Shown one piece after another: positions 50,550 through 60,190 of a stretch of 64,000 nucleotides of DNA (its first letter is position 1; every line of letters begins with the position of its first letter). The notes under the pieces were generated by a model that saw only the letters and a list, made by a program, of their open reading frames with translations, was not told the origin of the DNA and ran no database searches. The translations under genes and the position numbers were made by a program. This stretch comes from Bacteroidales bacterium (GTDB taxonomy: Bacteria > Bacteroidota > Bacteroidia > Bacteroidales > UBA932). The stretch covers positions 124,001 through 188,000 of the forward strand of contig JAGDBO010000001.1 of the NCBI GenBank assembly GCA_017959005.1, given 5' to 3'.

Positions 50550-52493
50550 ATGAAACGTCTTTTATTCTTTTCCACGGCAGTTCTCTGCGCCGTGCTGTTT
50601 GTTTTATCTTGTGATAAAAGCTCCAGTGTAAAGGTTATTGGAGTCACTCTTTCTGAGACAAACATCTCCATTGTTAGGGGAACCAGCAAAACTCTTACAG
50701 CAAAGATTGTCCCTGAAAATGCAGACAACCAAAATGTAACTTGGAAATCTGCAAATACAGATATTGCAACTGTAGATGCCGGCACGGTAAAGGGTGTTGG
50801 TGTTGGAAAGACCAACATTACGGTTGCTACGATAGAGGGAGACTTCCGCGCAATATGTGAGGTTACAGTAACTTCTGATGTTGTAAACGTTACCAGCGTA
50901 ACCTTAGACAAACCTTCCTTGGATATGGTGGAAGAGGATGAAGTTCAGCTTACTGCAACAGTTACACCTGCCAACGCAACAGACAAGAGCGTTACTTGGG
51001 AGAGCAGCGCTCCTACAATCGCAACCGTTACCAACGGTTTGGTTAAGGCTGTTGCTGAGGGTAATGCAACCATCACCGTTAAGACAACTGACGGCGGCAA
51101 AACCGCAACCTGCGCAGTGACAGTTGCTCACAAAGTTATACACGTTGAGTCTGTCTCTTTGGATAAGACAGAGCTTAATATGTCTATAGATGACGAAGAG
51201 ACCTTGACCGCAACCGTGCTTCCTGCAACAGCAGATGATAAATCTGTTACCTGGGAGAGCAGCAATTCAAATGTTGTAACCGTTACAGACGGTGTGGTAA
51301 AGGCTGTTGATAATGGAGAGGCAACCATCACCGTCAAGACAAAAGACGGCGGCAAAACCGCAACCTGCAAAGTAACCGTTGCACCACCTACCATAAGCTT
51401 TACAAAGATGGCCATCACTCAGCTTCCGGATATGCTTGAGCCTAAGAGCGATCACTCTGTATTTGTTGCAAACGGAGAACTTGTAGTTGCGGGAGGTCAC
51501 ACAACCGGTTTTGTAATCTCCTCTGAGGCTGAGTATTATAGCGGTGGCTCTTGGCACACAATGACTATGAAGGCTCCTCACGATTTCCCATTCGGCCTTC
51601 TGCTTTCTAACGGTAAGTTTATGATTGGCGGCGGCGCCTCTAGTAATTACGGCGTTGGCGCAAGCACTGCCGTAGAGACTTATGACCCTACAACTCACGA
51701 GTTTACAACTTTTGCCAGCCTGGTTAACCCACGTTTGATGGGCCGCGCCATTGAACTTGCAAACGGAGAGGTTGTGGTTTCCGGAAACTGGTATACTACC
51801 AACAGCATAGAGGTTTACAAACCTTCAGACAACAAGTTCCATCATCTGGTATATACATCATCCAACATGTATCAGCCATATGTATTCCGCATTGCCGCCA
51901 ACCAGTCAATGGCATTTGGTCCTGCAAGCAACCAGGGTGAGGTTTACAACGGAGAAGACTTCTACACTGAAACTCTTGCAGCCTACTCTTCCTACACTCC
52001 TATAATCTCTGCAGGCAACCAGTTGATGGACCAGTACCTTATAGGCAACTATGCAACAGATGATTACAGGTATCTCATATTGGGAAAGAGCTCTGCCGGC
52101 AAATTCGGTCTTATCCTTATAAACGGCAAGACCGCCACTGTTGTTCCTACAGACGTTGAGATTCCAACCACATACAACAACGAGCCTCTTTACTATGCCG
52201 GTCCTATTGTAGACAGGAGCAAGAACATTGCCTACCTGGTTGGTTCCAACTCCGGCACAACAGTTACCTTTATAGTTGTCGCGATAGATTACTCTAAGAT
52301 AGCCACAACGGGCGGAAAGGCCGAGCTTAAAGGCTATTACAGTGACCCTGTTACAAACGCCGCTCCTGCCTCCGGCTCTTCAATGACCCTTATGCCAGAC
52401 GGTCAGATTGTGCTTACCGGTGGTATCTATAACAGCAACTACACACCGTTCAAGACTGTCTACACCCTGGCACCTTGGGCCATAACCCCATAA
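50550..52493 (+). CDS. Surface lipoprotein with three Big2 domains and a kelch-like C-terminus
   Basis: A 647-residue lipoprotein (signal ending FVLSC, Cys21). Three bacterial Ig-like group 2 domains follow, about 85 residues each, from about 28 to 280. Each opens with V-x-x-V-x-L-x-x, has the VTWESS core, and ends with T-x-x-CxVTV. The rest (about 285-645) has kelch/galactose-oxidase-like strand repeats: VANGELVVAGGHT, LSNGKFMIGGGAS, ELANGEVVVSGNW, MPDGQIVLTGGIY. Big2 domains usually act as spacers or adhesion modules; no enzyme site is visible in the propeller. Monocistronic. Confidence 0.8.
   Translation: MKRLLFFSTAVLCAVLFVLSCDKSSSVKVIGVTLSETNISIVRGTSKTLTAKIVPENADNQNVTWKSANTDIATVDAGTVKGVGVGKTNITVATIEGDFRAICEVTVTSDVVNVTSVTLDKPSLDMVEEDEVQLTATVTPANATDKSVTWESSAPTIATVTNGLVKAVAEGNATITVKTTDGGKTATCAVTVAHKVIHVESVSLDKTELNMSIDDEETLTATVLPATADDKSVTWESSNSNVVTVTDGVVKAVDNGEATITVKTKDGGKTATCKVTVAPPTISFTKMAITQLPDMLEPKSDHSVFVANGELVVAGGHTTGFVISSEAEYYSGGSWHTMTMKAPHDFPFGLLLSNGKFMIGGGASSNYGVGASTAVETYDPTTHEFTTFASLVNPRLMGRAIELANGEVVVSGNWYTTNSIEVYKPSDNKFHHLVYTSSNMYQPYVFRIAANQSMAFGPASNQGEVYNGEDFYTETLAAYSSYTPIISAGNQLMDQYLIGNYATDDYRYLILGKSSAGKFGLILINGKTATVVPTDVEIPTTYNNEPLYYAGPIVDRSKNIAYLVGSNSGTTVTFIVVAIDYSKIATTGGKAELKGYYSDPVTNAAPASGSSMTLMPDGQIVLTGGIYNSNYTPFKTVYTLAPWAITP
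51066..51368 (+). repeat. Near-identical 48-bp repeats within the Big2 domains
   Basis: The segments 51066-51113 and 51321-51368 are almost identical (the sequence coding ATITVKT-DGGKTATC) and 255 bp apart, exactly one 85-codon Big2 unit. This indicates a recent internal duplication or conversion. The unit before 51066 is more diverged. Confidence 0.8.
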
Positions 52494-54291: not shown

Positions 54292-55740
54292 CTACAAAGG
54301 GTTAGATCCTTGCACCTCCTTCATCTTCTTGAAGTCCTCTTCCGTAATATTCTCCAATAGATATTTGCGGATATCTTCTTCTGTTGGCAATTGCAAGCGG
54401 TATTTGCTAACGAAGAGATTTGGAGAAAGTCCCTCTATGGCGTAACGCACTGTTGTTTCGCCAAAGTCTGTGCAAAGCAACAGGCCAATTGGCGGATTGT
54501 CATCCTCCTGCATAATCTCGTGTTTGTAGTAATTCACATAGAGGTTAAGTTGAGATGCATATTCCGGCCTAAAGCGGTCAATCTTTAAGTCAATGATAAT
54601 GTGACACTTCAGTATGCGGTGGTAAAAGATAAGATCTGCCTTATAGTAGTCTTGATCTATAAGGATACGCTTCTGCCGGTATTCAAAACAAAAACCTCTA
54701 CCCATTTCTTGGAGGAATCTCTGAAGATTATTTAAAATTGAAGTCTCCAACTTTGATTCAGTATAGATATCCTGCTGCTCCAACCCCAGAAATTCCAATG
54801 TGACAGGGTTGTGGAGAATATCACGAGGTGTAACTTGTTGCGCTTTCTTAGATGTCAATCTTTGTAATGACTTCTTATCTTTCGATAGGCCCATGCGTTC
54901 GTAATATTGTGAAGACACTTGACGGTCTAATTCTCTACTTGTCCAACATCCCCGTATAGCTTCTTGCTCATAAAAAGCTCGCTTCAAGGGGTCTTCAATA
55001 CTTGTCAAATAAGCTATACAAGTATAATTCAGTCTATAGAAGAGTTTATCTGCTGGCGTTGCCCATTTTTTCGATTGAGCTAGTGCAAATTGATGACTTA
55101 TTAGCTCTTGATTATTAGCTCTTTGCAATTTGGCAATCAGTGATTGCCAAATTGAGGAGACTCCTATATCCGATATTGGTAAACTGTTTCTTTGAAGATA
55201 AGACCCTACCTCATAAATCAACTGCGAATAGACCTTATATATGCGGCGATAAATACGTAAACTACGCGGTTCAAATCCCTTGCGATTAATTTTTTTCGAC
55301 AAACGGTCGATAAGTTTCTCGCCATACTTGGCGCGGTCCTTACCACTCTGCTCATACTCTACGATATAGTACCCTACCAGCCAATTGCGAGCGGTTAACG
55401 AAAGGTTGATGGCGTGGGCGGCCTGTTCTTGTAGTATGTCATGAACAAGGTTAATCCGTCCCACTAATGACTCAAATGTCATATTGTCCTCTAGGCTAGA
55501 TTCTTCATAGGGAACTATCGGAAACTCATTAAGATCCGGCTCTTCTACATATCCAATCAACATAAGAAACGGCACTCCTAGTACCGCCGAAGCTTTTTTG
55601 ATGGTCTCAAAATTCTTGGTCTTAAACAACGCCTTTACATTTTGCTTTCGGATACCCATCCTCCTGGCAAATTCGCTTTTGCTCATCCCTATCTGCTCTA
55701 ATAGGGCTTCTCCTTTTGCTTCAAAATAGATTTGATTCAT
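54292..55740 (-). CDS. HTH-fused YhcG/DUF1016 PD-(D/E)XK nuclease-family protein
   Basis: A 482-residue protein made of two parts. Residues about 12-60 form a Cro/XRE-like helix-turn-helix (GMSKSEFARRMGIRKQNVKAL) followed by FLMLIGYVEEP. From about residue 85 onward it is the YhcG family: the N-terminal helical DUF1016 domain (NWLVGYYIVEYEQSGKDRAKYGE), then a nuclease-like domain with Asp369 and Asp384-X-Lys386 (KADLIFYHRILKCHIIIDLKID). Typical YhcG proteins start at the second part. The family is accessory and patchy, often near mobile or restriction loci. Codon use looks more relaxed than in the neighbours (not computed). DNA or RNA target unknown. Confidence 0.85.
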   Translation of the reverse strand: MNQIYFEAKGEALLEQIGMSKSEFARRMGIRKQNVKALFKTKNFETIKKASAVLGVPFLMLIGYVEEPDLNEFPIVPYEESSLEDNMTFESLVGRINLVHDILQEQAAHAINLSLTARNWLVGYYIVEYEQSGKDRAKYGEKLIDRLSKKINRKGFEPRSLRIYRRIYKVYSQLIYEVGSYLQRNSLPISDIGVSSIWQSLIAKLQRANNQELISHQFALAQSKKWATPADKLFYRLNYTCIAYLTSIEDPLKRAFYEQEAIRGCWTSRELDRQVSSQYYERMGLSKDKKSLQRLTSKKAQQVTPRDILHNPVTLEFLGLEQQDIYTESKLETSILNNLQRFLQEMGRGFCFEYRQKRILIDQDYYKADLIFYHRILKCHIIIDLKIDRFRPEYASQLNLYVNYYKHEIMQEDDNPPIGLLLCTDFGETTVRYAIEGLSPNLFVSKYRLQLPTEEDIRKYLLENITEEDFKKMKEVQGSNPL

Positions 55741-55848: not shown

Positions 55849-56970
55849 TTAAGACTTATTCATACGGTTAAGTACCGCATAATAAGACTGGCGGGAGTTA
55901 AAGCCGGAGGCTTCCAAAGATTCCTGCATTGTTGATGTTGGGTGGTCTTTGTGATAACTCTCTACATGTTTCAATCTCAATGTGTTAACGTAAGAGAAAA
56001 ATCCACCGTATTCAGATTTTATCAGCCCGGCAACATATGAACGGTTGTAACCGCTGCGGTCTGCAACATCTTGAAGTGTAAGATGCGGATCAAGATAGGC
56101 CTCTTGTTTTTCCACAACAATCTTTATTGCAGAGAGAATCTCTTTGCGTTTATTTTGGGAGATAGAACGTTGGTAAAGAAGCTCTTTAACCTCTTCTTTA
56201 TCTTCTTTTTTTCCATCCTCCGCGATAGTTTCAATCTCCTTATCTTTTTTACAAGGGCGGTTGCGGTGCGGGTGCAGAGCGGTAATGAGGAAGATTATCA
56301 TTGATACGGCAAGGAATAATATCAACAGTTCCATTGCAAGGCGACTGCCGGAAAGGGCTGCACTCCAGCATAATACAATATTCACCAGCACCATAGTCAG
56401 CCACTTTCTTGCTGCAACTACCGGAAAATCAGCGGGGTTGGAGAAGACGTCCTCATCAAATCGCTTTGCCCAATTGTAAACTATAACAATGGCATAAATG
56501 CAACCAACCGTCATAATAACCCCAAAAGCATATATTACACAAGAGGCTGTATATGAGCTAATAATGTTTTCAATAGGTTTATTCAGCCACACCGTCAGGA
56601 CAAAAAATGCAACAAGTGCAAGAGCCACCGGAAGTCCGGTGATTATCATAATCACTCTCCATTTTTTCCAATGCATCACATTCCCAAAATATGAGAAGAG
56701 CAAAATGGTAAAATGGAACAGCGTAACCGGTAAAAAGTAGAACCTTACCAAGTAATGGGTATTATGGTTTTCCGGGCAGATGGCGTAGGGTATCAAAAAC
56801 AAGGCATTCAAGCCGAGTGCTGTTACAAACGGCCTTCCGGGAAAGTAATAACAGGGGTCCTTTTCGTATGGCCTGCACATGTGAAACCAACGTATGGCAG
56901 CCATTATCACACAAGTGGTGATGTAGATTGTTGCGGCCAAATCTCCGGTATATGAAAAGGTGTTTGTCAT
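55849..56970 (-). CDS. AraC-family regulator with N-terminal membrane domain
   Basis: A 373-residue protein. About the first 235 residues contain roughly seven hydrophobic helices (for example LPVTLFHFTILLFSYFG, VIMTVGCIYAIVIVYNW and LAMELLILFLAVSMIIFLITAL). A charged linker (KKDKEIETIAEDGKKEDKEEVKE) leads to a C-terminal AraC DNA-binding domain at about 285-373 with two HTHs: LTLQDVADRSGYNRSYVAGLI and TMQESLEASGFNSRQSYYAVL. It would sense a signal at the membrane and bind DNA directly. A TAAATTTG box ends 8 nt before its ATG. It diverges from the peptide/repeat-lipoprotein operon across a TTGAC array, its likely operator. Confidence 0.85.
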   Translation of the reverse strand: MTNTFSYTGDLAATIYITTCVIMAAIRWFHMCRPYEKDPCYYFPGRPFVTALGLNALFLIPYAICPENHNTHYLVRFYFLPVTLFHFTILLFSYFGNVMHWKKWRVIMIITGLPVALALVAFFVLTVWLNKPIENIISSYTASCVIYAFGVIMTVGCIYAIVIVYNWAKRFDEDVFSNPADFPVVAARKWLTMVLVNIVLCWSAALSGSRLAMELLILFLAVSMIIFLITALHPHRNRPCKKDKEIETIAEDGKKEDKEEVKELLYQRSISQNKRKEILSAIKIVVEKQEAYLDPHLTLQDVADRSGYNRSYVAGLIKSEYGGFFSYVNTLRLKHVESYHKDHPTSTMQESLEASGFNSRQSYYAVLNRMNKS

Positions 56971-56978
56971 TTGAGAAA

Positions 56979-56986
56979 CAAATTTA
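56979..56986 (-). promoter_or_regulatory. -7 promoter box of the AraC-type regulator
   Basis: Minus-strand TAAATTTG, full consensus, 8 nt before the regulator's start codon. Confidence 0.65.
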
Positions 56987-57002: not shown

Positions 57003-57069
57003 TTGACTCTGCATTGACATTGTTAACTCAGGGTTGACTCCCTCTTGACGGATTCTTGACACCGTTGAC
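57003..57069 (+). promoter_or_regulatory. Array of seven TTGAC-type direct repeats (putative operator)
   Basis: TTGAC starts at 57003, 57014, 57034, 57045, 57056 and 57065, and the variant TTAAC starts at 57023. Steps are 11, 9, 11, 11, 11 and 9 bp, close to one helical turn, so all copies face the same side of the DNA. The array lies between the two divergent -7 boxes, and its last copies occupy the -33 region of the peptide-lipoprotein promoter. An activator binding cooperatively there is the simplest reading; the adjacent AraC-type protein is the obvious candidate. Confidence 0.65.
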
Positions 57070-57081
57070 GCACGCACTAAT

Positions 57082-57089
57082 CATATTTG
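57082..57089 (+). promoter_or_regulatory. -7 promoter box of the peptide/repeat-lipoprotein operon
   Basis: CATATTTG, one mismatch from TAnnTTTG, 12 nt after the last TTGAC and 38 nt before the small peptide's ATG. A weakened box fits a promoter that needs an activator. Confidence 0.5.
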
Positions 57090-57127: not shown

Positions 57128-57262
57128 ATGAGAAAAAAACAGGTTTATCAGCAACCCCAAATCAAGGTTCTGACAATTCACACAGAAAGTCTTCTGGTTG
57201 GCTTTAGTGGCGGAGGCTATGGCGGGCAACAAAGTTTAGATTGGCCATCTGGTGACGAATAA
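57128..57262 (+). CDS. 44-residue Gly-rich small protein
   Basis: A frame of 45 codons: a basic start MRKKQVYQQPQIKVLTIHTE, a short hydrophobic turn SLLVGF, then SGGGYGGQQSLDWPSGDE. There is no signal peptide or membrane helix. It lies directly behind the TTGAC-array promoter and 21 bp before the repeat-lipoprotein gene, so it is the first gene of that operon. From memory, short proteins beginning [KR]KK-x-Y-x-x-P-x-[IT]-x-V and ending in a Gly/Asp-rich tail recur in Bacteroidales next to surface-protein genes; I could not check this. Function unknown. Confidence 0.6.
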   Translation: MRKKQVYQQPQIKVLTIHTESLLVGFSGGGYGGQQSLDWPSGDE

Positions 57263-57283: not shown

Positions 57284-60190
57284 ATGAAAAAGATTTTTAG
57301 ACTTTTTGCATCAGCGATGCTTCTTTCAGGACTTTTTATAGTATCCTGCACCAAGGAAGATATAGCGAACCTTTCTCCAGATGAAGAGGATGGTATTCAA
57401 GCTTACACTTTGACAATTAAAGCTACCAAAGAAAAGACTCCGGGCACAAAGGTACTGGAACTTGGTGGGGCCGACAATAAAACGCTTTTTAAAAAATGGG
57501 CTGTAAATGACGAAGTTTCAGTTTATAAGGGAGATGTTTTTGCTGGAACTTTGACGGCAACAACCGTATCTGCAGATGGTTCAGACGCCACCCTTACCGG
57601 CCAACTTACACATACGACTATCAATCCGGGAGATGCTCTTTTAATGAAATACAGCAGCCCTAATTATAGTACTCAGAACGGTACCCTGGAAGGTATTTCT
57701 GCAACATGTGATTATGCCGAGGCCAACGTAACTGTAGCAACAATAGATGGTAGCGGAAACATTACTACCACTTCTGACGCCATCTTCAGCAGTCAACAGG
57801 CCATTGTAAAGTTTACGCTGAAAGATGAAGCGGGAAATCTTGTTCCTGTAACCAAACTCACAATTAAAATAGAGGAGACATCCAACAAGGTAGAGGTAAC
57901 TCCAGCCTCAGGAACGAGCGAGCTGTATGTAGCTCTTGCAGGTGTCTCCTCAAAAGGTCTCATTCTTGAGGCTACAGGCTCGGACGGTTATAACTATTCT
58001 TTCCGTAAAGCAGATGTTACCTTTGAAACATCCAAATACTATGGTGTAAATGTGAATCTTTTCTGTGCCAATACAACCCCACTTACCCTTATGGCAAAGG
58101 GGAATGGTACGATAACATTCAAACTTAGAGACGTTTCCAGTATAAATCCGATAACTTACCGCAAAAATAATGGAGCTCCGGTAGAAATACCCAAGGGAAC
58201 CACCGTTATTTCCGTAGAAACAGGAGATAAGGTCTCATTTTATGGCAATAACGCCGCTTACGGTGATTATTCTTCTGGCAATAAGTCTAATATTACAAGT
58301 TCTGTGGACTGTTCTATATATGGCAACATAATGAGTCTTATAGACGAGAACAACTTTGCAACACTGACAACCCTTACTGATGCAAGTACTTTTGTTTATC
58401 TCTTCCAGAATAATACACACTTATGTAATCATGCCTGGAAGGAACTTGTACTTCCGGCAACAACTGTTAATAAGTACAGTTATTATCTAATGTTTGGAGG
58501 TTGCACTAAGCTTACTTCTGCTCCGTCACTTCCTGCAACAACCTTGGATGACCACTGTTATAAGGAAATGTTCCTGAATTGCACCGGCCTTACCGAAATA
58601 CCAACCACCTTACCTGCAACAAGCTTAGCAATATACTGTTACAATAACATGTTTAAGGGTTGTACTAACATTACCAGTGCTCCGACACTTCCTGCTACAT
58701 CTTTGGCACACTCTTGTTACCTGGGAATGTTTAGCGGATGTACTAACCTTGCGGCTACTCCGGCTCTTTCTGCAACGACCTTAGCACCTTATTGTTATAA
58801 TGACATGTTCAACGGCTGTACAACAATTACCACCGCTCCAACTCTTCCGGCTTTAACAATGGAAACCTTCTGCTATAAGGGGATGTTCCAGGGATGTACA
58901 AATCTTACAACAGTTCCGGCTCTTCCGGCCATGGCATTAGCAAATTATTGTTATCAAAATATGTTCTTTGGTTGTACCAAAATAACCACCCCTCCGTCAC
59001 TTCCGGCCACCACATTAGTACAGAGTTGTTATGCGGAGATGTTTTATAACTGTACTAATCTTGCTACGGCTCCAACCCTTCCAGCAACAACTCTGGCACC
59101 AGCTTGTTATATAGGAATGTTTGAAAACTGTACCAAGCTTACGGCAACACCCGCTCTTCCCGCTACCGCCACAGAAACAAACTGCTACTTTGGAATGTTT
59201 TCCGGTTGTACTAACCTTACCTCAATTCCTTCAACTCTTCCGGGGGGCGATTTGGCCTTTTGCTGCTATAAGGAGATGTTCAAGGATTGCAAAAAGATTA
59301 CCACAGCACCATCCTTTACGGCAACATCTACGCAGCTTCAGTGTTGTTATGGAATGTTTTCCGGTTGTACGAAACTCTCTACTGCCAACATAAGTTTTGA
59401 CTGCGGAAGTGGAAAAATTGCCATGGGTGCATGTTACGAAATGTTCTATAATTGTACATCTCTTACCACCGGACCAACTACCATCACAGCATCCGAGGTT
59501 GAGAGTTCTGGCTGCTATAGAATGTTTGCGGGCTGTGAAATACTTACCACATTTCCAACAACACTTCCGGCTATGACCATTGGCGGATCTGGTTATTGCT
59601 TTATGTTTTACAATTGCAAAAAGATGGAAACGGCTCCAACTCTACCTGCAACAACACTGGCGGGTTCTGCTTATGAAGGAATGTTTATGAATTGTACTAA
59701 ACTTGAGAACGTTCAAAACAGCCTCCCTGGACAAACACTAAAAAGATACACTTACGCGTCCATGTTTAATGGATGTACAAGCTTAGAGACAGCCCCGGCT
59801 ATTGCCGCTACCAGTATGGAGGAGAATTATAACTGCTGGAGTATGTTTTCCAACTGTACAAAACTTAGGAACGTTCCGGCTCTCCCAAATATAGCCTTAA
59901 CCACACGCTGCTATCAATTTATGTTTAGCGGCTGCACCAGTCTTGAAACGGCACCCGTTCTTCCATCTGAAACGTTGGTAGAGGCTTGTTACCGCAGTAT
60001 GTTTAAAGGTTGTACGAATTTGAATTATGTTAAATGTCTGGCAACCAGCATTTCTGCCGAAGATTGTACTGAAGAATGGTTGTCCGGTGTTGCGGCAACT
60101 GGAACGTTTGTAAAGGATCCGTCAACAACCACATGGGGTAGCGGAATAAACGGAATTCCATCCGGCTGGACGGTTGAAGATAACTCATAA
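57284..60190 (+). CDS. Cys-rich BspA/DUF285-like repeat lipoprotein with fimbrillin-like N-terminus
   Basis: A 968-residue surface lipoprotein (signal ending FIVSC, Cys22). Residues about 30-260 look like the fimbrillin-like domains of Bacteroidales lipoproteins (TKVLELGGADNKTLFKKWAVNDEVSVY, SSQQAIVKFTLKD). From about 395 to 930 there are 20 copies of a 26-27-residue unit with consensus MFxGCTxLtxaPtLPATtLaxxCYxx. Most units carry two cysteines spaced C-Y-x-x-M-F-x-x-C. The unit is related to BspA/DUF285-type leucine-rich repeats, which bind host or microbial proteins. The end returns to non-repeat sequence (WGSGINGIPSGWTVE). Co-transcribed with the 44-residue protein. Confidence 0.82.
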   Translation: MKKIFRLFASAMLLSGLFIVSCTKEDIANLSPDEEDGIQAYTLTIKATKEKTPGTKVLELGGADNKTLFKKWAVNDEVSVYKGDVFAGTLTATTVSADGSDATLTGQLTHTTINPGDALLMKYSSPNYSTQNGTLEGISATCDYAEANVTVATIDGSGNITTTSDAIFSSQQAIVKFTLKDEAGNLVPVTKLTIKIEETSNKVEVTPASGTSELYVALAGVSSKGLILEATGSDGYNYSFRKADVTFETSKYYGVNVNLFCANTTPLTLMAKGNGTITFKLRDVSSINPITYRKNNGAPVEIPKGTTVISVETGDKVSFYGNNAAYGDYSSGNKSNITSSVDCSIYGNIMSLIDENNFATLTTLTDASTFVYLFQNNTHLCNHAWKELVLPATTVNKYSYYLMFGGCTKLTSAPSLPATTLDDHCYKEMFLNCTGLTEIPTTLPATSLAIYCYNNMFKGCTNITSAPTLPATSLAHSCYLGMFSGCTNLAATPALSATTLAPYCYNDMFNGCTTITTAPTLPALTMETFCYKGMFQGCTNLTTVPALPAMALANYCYQNMFFGCTKITTPPSLPATTLVQSCYAEMFYNCTNLATAPTLPATTLAPACYIGMFENCTKLTATPALPATATETNCYFGMFSGCTNLTSIPSTLPGGDLAFCCYKEMFKDCKKITTAPSFTATSTQLQCCYGMFSGCTKLSTANISFDCGSGKIAMGACYEMFYNCTSLTTGPTTITASEVESSGCYRMFAGCEILTTFPTTLPAMTIGGSGYCFMFYNCKKMETAPTLPATTLAGSAYEGMFMNCTKLENVQNSLPGQTLKRYTYASMFNGCTSLETAPAIAATSMEENYNCWSMFSNCTKLRNVPALPNIALTTRCYQFMFSGCTSLETAPVLPSETLVEACYRSMFKGCTNLNYVKCLATSISAEDCTEEWLSGVAATGTFVKDPSTTTWGSGINGIPSGWTVEDNS
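58480..60020 (+). repeat. Twenty tandem 78-81-bp coding repeats
   Basis: Each unit encodes about 26-27 residues around ATGTTn-n-TGT/TGC (Met-Phe-x-x-Cys). The units are diverged at the DNA level but constant in frame, indicating an old tandem expansion under selection. Copies 1, 16 and 17 lack the Cys of the CY pair. Confidence 0.85.

Follow-up and report, generated by a model that had tools for sequence, protein, structure and literature searches.

For AraC itself, the sites araI1 and araI2 are direct repeats located about two helical turns apart next to the -35 element. To our knowledge neither araI1-araI2 nor the MarA operator forms a long array; they comprise two half-sites or one site. 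Here we analysed a tandem array of short repeats at positions 57003..57069 (plus strand) of a 64,000-nucleotide (nt) stretch of contig JAGDBO010000001.1 from a Bacteroidales bacterium, referred to as the window. The array is located between two divergently oriented transcription units. On one side lies the gene of a membrane AraC-type regulator of 373 amino acids (aa; 55849..56970, minus strand), on the other side an operon whose first gene encodes a 44-aa peptide (57128..57262, plus strand) and whose second gene encodes a 968-aa lipoprotein with PARCEL repeats (57284..60190, plus strand; NCBIfam TIGR02167, E 4e-14). XylS, by comparison, is a soluble protein, unlike the membrane regulator at this locus. 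Based on the comparison of sequences across relatives we consider it very likely that the array functions as operator for the peptide/lipoprotein operon and serves the adjacent protein as a membrane-bound AraC-type one-component activator. The putative operator would most likely comprise three tandem AraC/XylS-type sites, each consisting of an A-box followed by a B-box, and a fourth A half-site, in a class-II-type arrangement.

Among the described operators we compared those of the hybrid two-component systems (HTCS) of Bacteroides first. These regulators carry AraC-type domains and their predicted operators are direct repeats with an average of 21 base pairs (bp) between tandem sites (PMC3878776). 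The present array likewise shows direct repeats of about 21 bp on the same face of the DNA, but whereas the HTCS motifs hold two sites (PMC3878776), here we found up to four units, in some cases with an additional half-site. Furthermore, the HTCSs analysed in that work had been picked for their susC/susD neighbors (PMC3878776), whereas the array faces a peptide/lipoprotein operon, and in contrast to an HTCS the regulator has no kinase or receiver domain detectable with Pfam. The array appears to work like an HTCS operator, although its predicted regulator is not a member of the HTCS group. At the Pm promoter of the TOL plasmid XylS recognizes direct repeats composed of a box A and a box B separated by 6 bp, i.e. 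10 bp from start to start; binding of one monomer to the proximal site facilitates that of another to the distal site, and there is interaction with RNA polymerase (PMC5481539). Direct repeats of A- and B-boxes are common to Pm and our array, but Pm has two repeats only (PMC5481539). In MarA two recognition helices fit into adjacent major grooves (PMC6882843), and A- and B-boxes located 10–11 bp apart match two helix-turn-helix (HTH) motifs in adjacent grooves in the same manner. Finally, transmembrane (TM) transcription regulators are one-component proteins which act from the membrane and are reported to be enriched in Bacteroidota (PMC10269533). The predicted membrane one-component action is shared with these proteins, but the available part of the main text of that work does not mention AraC, and operator arrays were not found in it (PMC10269533).

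By its design, the array extends a known type of operator to greater length and does not represent a new geometry. What sets it apart is how many units it contains, a membrane regulator that carries no kinase or receiver domain, the peptide and lipoprotein targets, and the half-site. Among open-licence PMC papers we recognised none dealing with these regulators or their arrays, which is weak evidence of absence. With the present analysis, a membrane AraC-type family of uncultured gut Bacteroidales gains a predicted operator, a promoter class and a target operon.

The array, its relatives and its register to the promoter

The array contains six TTGAC pentamers (starting at 57003, 57014, 57034, 57045, 57056 and 57065) and one TTAAC (starting at 57023) within 67 bp, all on the plus strand. 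The steps between box starts are 11, 9, 11, 11, 11 and 9 bp, altogether 62 bp for six steps with a mean of 10.3 bp. These coordinates agree with an earlier note on the window, which had described the seven words in one orientation and had judged their clustering to be far beyond chance. This judgement was borne out by shuffling: compared with the six real copies of TTGAC in 67 bp, a maximum of three was reached on either strand in 150 dinucleotide shuffles of the 64-kilobase (kb) window, and the runner-up cluster in the real window has two copies. TTGAC is the only non-self-overlapping pentamer with 5 or more copies in 67 bp in the real window, and 30 shuffles did not produce any. A genome-wide search, as suggested in the note, revealed no second TTGAC-N4-6-TTGAC-N4-6-TTGAC triple elsewhere in the 1.8-megabase assembly (86% complete). 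When searching the same assembly with a model of the array family, we found only this array at E≤1, its distal part giving rise to a second match (E 0.9). No palindromic operator was detected in the spacer, its inverted repeats being two pairs only with arms 120 and 295 nt apart. A scan of the spacer for sigma-70-type promoters, which is unsuited to this phylum, gave 2 matches versus 1.2 expected.

Relatives were taken from the family (398 genomes) and from 19 regulator loci identified in a scan of genome contigs, because a search at the level of the order (393 genomes, evenly drawn) recovered the regulator only in its own genome and in one distant match. The regulator is present in 31 of the 398 family genomes and in 6 of the 39 genomes of the genus. 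Assemblies with this regulator family are mostly metagenomic by title, and several titles of the contig loci mention ruminants as the source (water buffalo, goat, red deer, yak). After dropping identical copies, the main clade (score >500) comprises 27 regulators including three near-copies (loci L035, L086 and L046), which were excluded from counts. Identity to the window regulator is 45–57% across the main clade and 94% for L035. Alignment of the relatives’ spacers showed that the array is kept; for 21 of the 27 main-clade regulators the neighboring spacer contains one which could be anchored on a -7 box. In total we compared 26 arrays: 18 located adjacent to the regulator gene, three displaced within the locus (L037, L038, L040) and five distant ones, the last eight having been found with the model (A2/R1, hereafter R1). 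R1 was built from 15 arrays. L063, L065 and L067 were excluded from it because their AC cores are not located at -23 (see below), but were retained in the 26 compared arrays and in the 18 spacers used for the analysis of periodicity.

In the window the array divides into three units on the plus strand with a spacing of 20–22 bp and an A-to-B distance of 11 bp in all three. Unit 1 (57003..57019) is composed of A-box TTGACTC (57003-57009) and B-box TTGACA (57014-57019), and its 11-bp step lies in a register common to L096, L097, L066 and L087. Unit 2 (57023..57039) combines TTAACTC (57023-57029) with TTGACT (57034-57039). Its deviating core TTAAC represents a variant of the A-box that is also seen in relatives, as TTAACGC in L096 and as TTAACTC in L097. 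Unit 3 (57045..57061) has A-box TTGACGG (57045-57051) and B-box TTGACA (57056-57061). A lone A half-site, TTGACGC (57065..57071, plus strand), follows between the -33 and -7 elements and has no B-box after it.

The elements of the primary sigma factor of Bacteroidetes are TTTG at about -33 and TAnnTTTG at -7 (PMC7366714). Perfect TAnnTTTG was present in 19 of 21 anchored adjacent spacers. The two exceptions are the window and L035, both of which have CATATTTG; in the window this box (57082..57089, plus strand) lacks the first T of TAnnTTTG, consistent with the -7 box of the peptide/lipoprotein operon having been called degenerate. The -7 anchors of the distant arrays were chosen by eye (GATCTTTG, GTATATTCG, TATATTTG, GAAATTTG, TAAATTTA) and one alone is a perfect TAnnTTTG. 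Counted from the start of the -7 box (position 0), the AC cores of the window are located at -76, -65, -56, -45, -34, -23 and -14. Identical positions of all seven cores were found in L066, L087, L096 and L097, whose regulators are 53–57% identical to that of the window. Thus five of the 26 arrays, the window and these four, keep all seven boxes in one register, and in L044 the seven positions are within 1 bp of those in the window. Of the 26 arrays, 18 have an AC core at -23 and 3 others have one at -24, while a core at -34 is present in 17. Elsewhere between offsets 15 and 39 a core was seen in 5 arrays at -21, in 4 at -33 and in no more than 1 array at any remaining offset. The promoter-proximal B-box starts 26 bp ahead of the -7 box, roughly at the -33 element, which is the place where a class-II activator would sit, as judged by position.

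According to this arrangement we propose that regulator monomers in the inner membrane would line up on one face of the DNA, one per A+B unit, with HTH1 reading each A-box and HTH2 reading each B-box. The promoter-proximal monomer at -33 could recruit the Bacteroidetes RNA polymerase and so offset the weak -7 box in a class-II-type manner, and the occupied array would switch on the genes for the peptide and the surface protein. The lone A half-site (AC[TG]C at -14) is found in 8 of the 26 arrays, distributed over several branches of the regulator tree (window, L096, L097, L045, L044, L066, L087, L038). A role as a brake or in handover is conceivable.

A bolder proposal, which we regard as doubtful, is that the membrane-bound AraC receptor senses a signal connected with the small peptide encoded by its own target operon and that the array acts as a docking strip. 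A few membrane-tethered molecules would then capture the promoter and hold it at the membrane, and the A half-site, lying within the core promoter, would serve as a built-in brake. If this holds true, the recurrent families of peptides and small TM open reading frames (ORFs) would be part of a signalling circuit.

The half-site inside the core promoter of these eight arrays could also point to a repressor operator, in which the regulator covers the -33 element as well as the -33/-7 spacer and blocks the peptide operon. When an AraC-type regulator has a site directly next to the -35 element, it is usually an activator. This is the case for XylS at Pm (PMC5481539), and tandem arrays that end at a fixed distance from the -7 box suit activation, as does the weak -7 box of the window. 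We therefore consider repression of the operon unlikely.

The adjacent regulator and its association with the array

The N-terminal portion of the regulator is hydrophobic and shows 7 hydropathy peaks in residues 11-229 (also 7 in L097 and 5 in L041), from which its putative topology was judged. The C-terminus resembles the double HTH of AraC/XylS proteins, with a match to HTH_18 at residues 303-370. Among 26 aligned members of the family, HTH_18 was found in 25 and HTH_AraC in 17 (Pfam, E≤0.01). A comparison of the family profile with the PDB gave 7 sequences with E≤0.01; positions 265-356 of the profile match AraC-type chains (6swi, MarA 1xs9/1bl0, SoxS), and MarA 1bl0/1xs9 and other AraC-type chains have E-values of 1.7e-5 to 2.7e-3. 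The family therefore contains an AraC-type double-HTH DNA-binding domain, and the window regulator combines putative TM segments and a DNA-binding domain in one protein, as is typical of transmembrane one-component regulators. No kinase or receiver family is among the 12 Pfam families matched by any of the 26 members, and the window protein itself matches HTH_18 only.

The regulator gene has a -7 box of its own, TAAATTTG (56979..56986, minus strand), 8 nt ahead of the ATG. Searching the 60 nt ahead of the start codon, we found a perfect TAnnTTTG on the minus strand at a distance of 3–13 nt in 24 of the 27 main-clade regulators, compared with 6 of 309 background stretches of 60 nt. Owing to this proximity to the start codon the regulator transcripts appear to have little or no leader. 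With seven boxes, as in the window, the distal unit of the array starts 17 bp from the -7 box of the regulator and would therefore cover the -33 region of the regulator’s own promoter. For this layout it is plausible that occupancy of the array would lower synthesis of the regulator (negative feedback). The overlap between the array and the regulator promoter is not a conserved feature, being absent from L041 and from the displaced arrays.

In order to describe the association between array and regulator we compared their occurrence across the family. Arrays were detected with R1 in 16 of the 398 genomes (E≤0.01), and the regulator is present in 14 of these 16 genomes versus 17 of the 382 array-less ones. 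Fisher’s test gave a p-value of 1.3e-15, 7e-6 without the 9 genomes from which the model was built and 1.1e-3 when two near-copies were also left out.

In L037, L038 and L040, which were not part of R1, the regulator’s own upstream spacer contains no array and R1 matches an array elsewhere in the locus. The distance to the regulator is 1.6 kb in L038 (E 4e-5) and 3.6 kb in L040 (E 6e-5), whereas in L037 the array follows just past the regulator gene, with two weak matches (E 0.86-0.87) but plainly readable boxes. All three arrays are located at a -7 box ahead of a peptide ORF, accompanied in L037 and L040 by a small TM ORF. The hexamer located 26 bp ahead of the -7 box reads GATACA (L037), ATGACA (L038) and TTGTCA (L040). 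Since the displaced arrays still front a small-peptide operon, the array belongs to the target operon. Five extra arrays are found away from the regulator gene. Those of L117, L118 and L125 front peptide ORFs of this same type and those of L123 and L124 lipoprotein-like ORFs; the array of L125 lies about 7 kb from the regulator, while those of L117, L118 and L124 are on other contigs than the regulator. The matches of L119 and L121 look like chance.

Arrays located 1.6–3.6 kb away (L038, L040) or on another contig (L117, L118, L124) are what would be expected if the operator served a different regulator, e.g. an AraC-type or hybrid two-component protein, with the membrane regulator being a mere neighbor. 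The co-occurrence at the genome level argues against this, as does the A-to-B spacing that tends to track the regulator tree (see below), and we regard a different regulator as improbable. The earlier note had claimed a protein-binding array on one face of the DNA which is tied to the adjacent regulator. Conservation in relatives and linkage strengthen this tie, while the binding itself is a prediction.

The two-box unit of about 21 bp

Matches between 4-mers in the 18 non-redundant spacers were most overrepresented at lags of 20 (z 16), 21 (z 17), 22 (z 12) and 42 (z 21), whereas the half-unit lags of 11 and 31 were weaker (z about 6). The strongest lags thus indicate a unit of about two helical turns holding two related boxes. 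Direct site repeats of about 21 bp are also a property of HTCS-type operators. The A-box occurs in variants such as TTGACTC, TAGACTC, TGAACGC and TTTACTC, the B-box as TTGACA, ATGACA, TGGACA and GGGACA.

Considering distances from 6 to 15 bp in the 26 arrays, 40 A-to-B pairs were spaced at 11 bp, 11 pairs at 10 bp and 6 pairs at any other distance. In mononucleotide shuffles we found about 0.5 pairs per distance with a maximum of 4; A- and B-boxes are thus one turn apart. Constancy of A-to-B and B-to-A distances was counted over equal ranges. In the range of 9–12 bp all A-to-B distances were equal in 17 of 19 arrays with at least two pairs, in comparison to 4 of 13 arrays for B-to-A. In the range of 8–13 bp these fractions were 15 of 20 and 2 of 15. 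A steady A-to-B and a variable B-to-A distance would fit rigid sites of one protein and flexible packing between proteins.

The A-to-B spacing also tends to follow the regulator tree. With labels called by a script, the change between 10 and 11 bp occurred twice among 20 labelled rows, compared with a mean of 5.9 in shuffled labels, and none of 300 shuffles reached two changes or fewer; labels assigned by eye likewise resulted in 2 changes. L037 is a tie. Labelling it as 11 bp gave 3 changes, a value reached by 10 of 300 shuffles, and omitting it gave 2 changes, reached by 0 of 300. The varying number of units (2 to 4 across the arrays), the A-to-B step of either 10 or 11 bp, and the half-site inside the promoter together form a natural series that may help to ask how many sites a membrane-tethered activator needs.

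In the window A- and B-boxes share the TTGAC core, and for this reason the array looks like seven equal words. The earlier note had accordingly taken the one-turn steps for an unusual operator geometry. A true one-turn array (10–11 bp), occupied by a DNA-coating protein with one recognition element per turn, would explain why all seven boxes have this core (one as TTAAC) at steps of 9–11 bp. In the relatives, in contrast, A- and B-boxes differ from each other (TGAACGC/TGGACA in L048, TTGACGC/GGGACA in L066) and are placed 10–11 bp apart within a unit of about 21 bp. The strong lags at 20–22 and 42 and the steadier A-to-B spacing led us to reject such an array, which we now regard as very improbable, and the proposed unusual geometry was not upheld. 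As the site repeat of AraC-type regulators holds one-turn and two-turn steps alike, the contrast between a classical two-turn and an unusual one-turn spacing dissolves: a geometry that is odd in one genome turns ordinary after comparing relatives. Neutral tandem duplication by slippage would likewise leave similarly long direct repeats in non-coding spacer DNA, but it was rejected as practically negligible in probability, being contradicted by conservation: the units differ outside the boxes, yet the positions of the boxes relative to the -7 box are kept at 45–57% regulator identity.

Several observations weigh against an operator of the adjacent membrane AraC-type activator. At the level of the protein, the window regulator alone scores 17.5 bits for HTH_18 compared with a Pfam cut-off of 33.6, and its HTH2 is short. 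Covariation between a residue of HTH2 and a base of the B-box was concordant in 20 of 23 cases but not significant when ancestry was taken into account (3 independent pairs, p 0.5 or more), and the pair of residue and base had been chosen after looking. At the level of the boxes, the B-box of unit 2 in the window (TTGACT) deviates from the consensus, the arrays of L037 and L123 mix A-to-B steps of 10 and 11 bp, and those of L063, L065 and L067 are located outside the -23 register. The statistics on register and spacing furthermore include the sequences in which the pattern was first noticed. With respect to the association, no array was detected in the DNA covered for L064 and L085 of the 27 main-clade regulators, and for L068 the only match is weak and displaced (E 4e-4). 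The array search was empty in 17 of the 31 regulator genomes, which is weak evidence because stricter filters were used. Conversely, G444 and G704, 2 of the 16 array genomes, do not contain the regulator; their matches look like chance.

The target operon and neighboring genes

Short ORFs resembling the 44-aa peptide gene are located under the array in many relatives. The family has roughly the pattern MxxK..YxxPxxxVxxxxxEGxxCxS (YxxPxxxV... family), and inspection by eye gave no sign of a signal peptide. The window peptide does not have the Cys of the family and showed no match in Pfam or NCBIfam. In L041, L043, L062, L063, L096, L097, L037 and L040 a small ORF with one hydrophobic stretch leads the genes under the array. 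These ORFs are listed with about 43–90 aa, their start codons being uncertain, and precede the peptide or other genes; the window is without one. In L039, L047 and L085 we saw no peptide ORF beyond the spacer upstream of the regulator when inspecting it by eye, and found instead a short stretch that ends in a GC-rich hairpin, perhaps a small RNA or a very short ORF. L043, L065 and L067, which form a sub-branch of the regulators, face a conserved ORF that by eye resembles a membrane protein. It is preceded by a small TM ORF in L043 and L065, and L043 in addition features a glycosyltransferase-like ORF (both by eye).

Downstream of the window regulator we noticed a gene for a YhcG/DUF1016-type nuclease (54292-55740, minus strand). 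By eye, a similar YhcG-type reading frame apparently lies between regulator and array in L040, and the ORFs separating regulator and array in L038 and L040 comprise a toxin-antitoxin-like pair and a YhcG-type gene. Further away in the window, a lipoprotein-like ORF at 50550-52493 contains three Big_2 (bacterial Ig-like) stretches together with weak Kelch matches.
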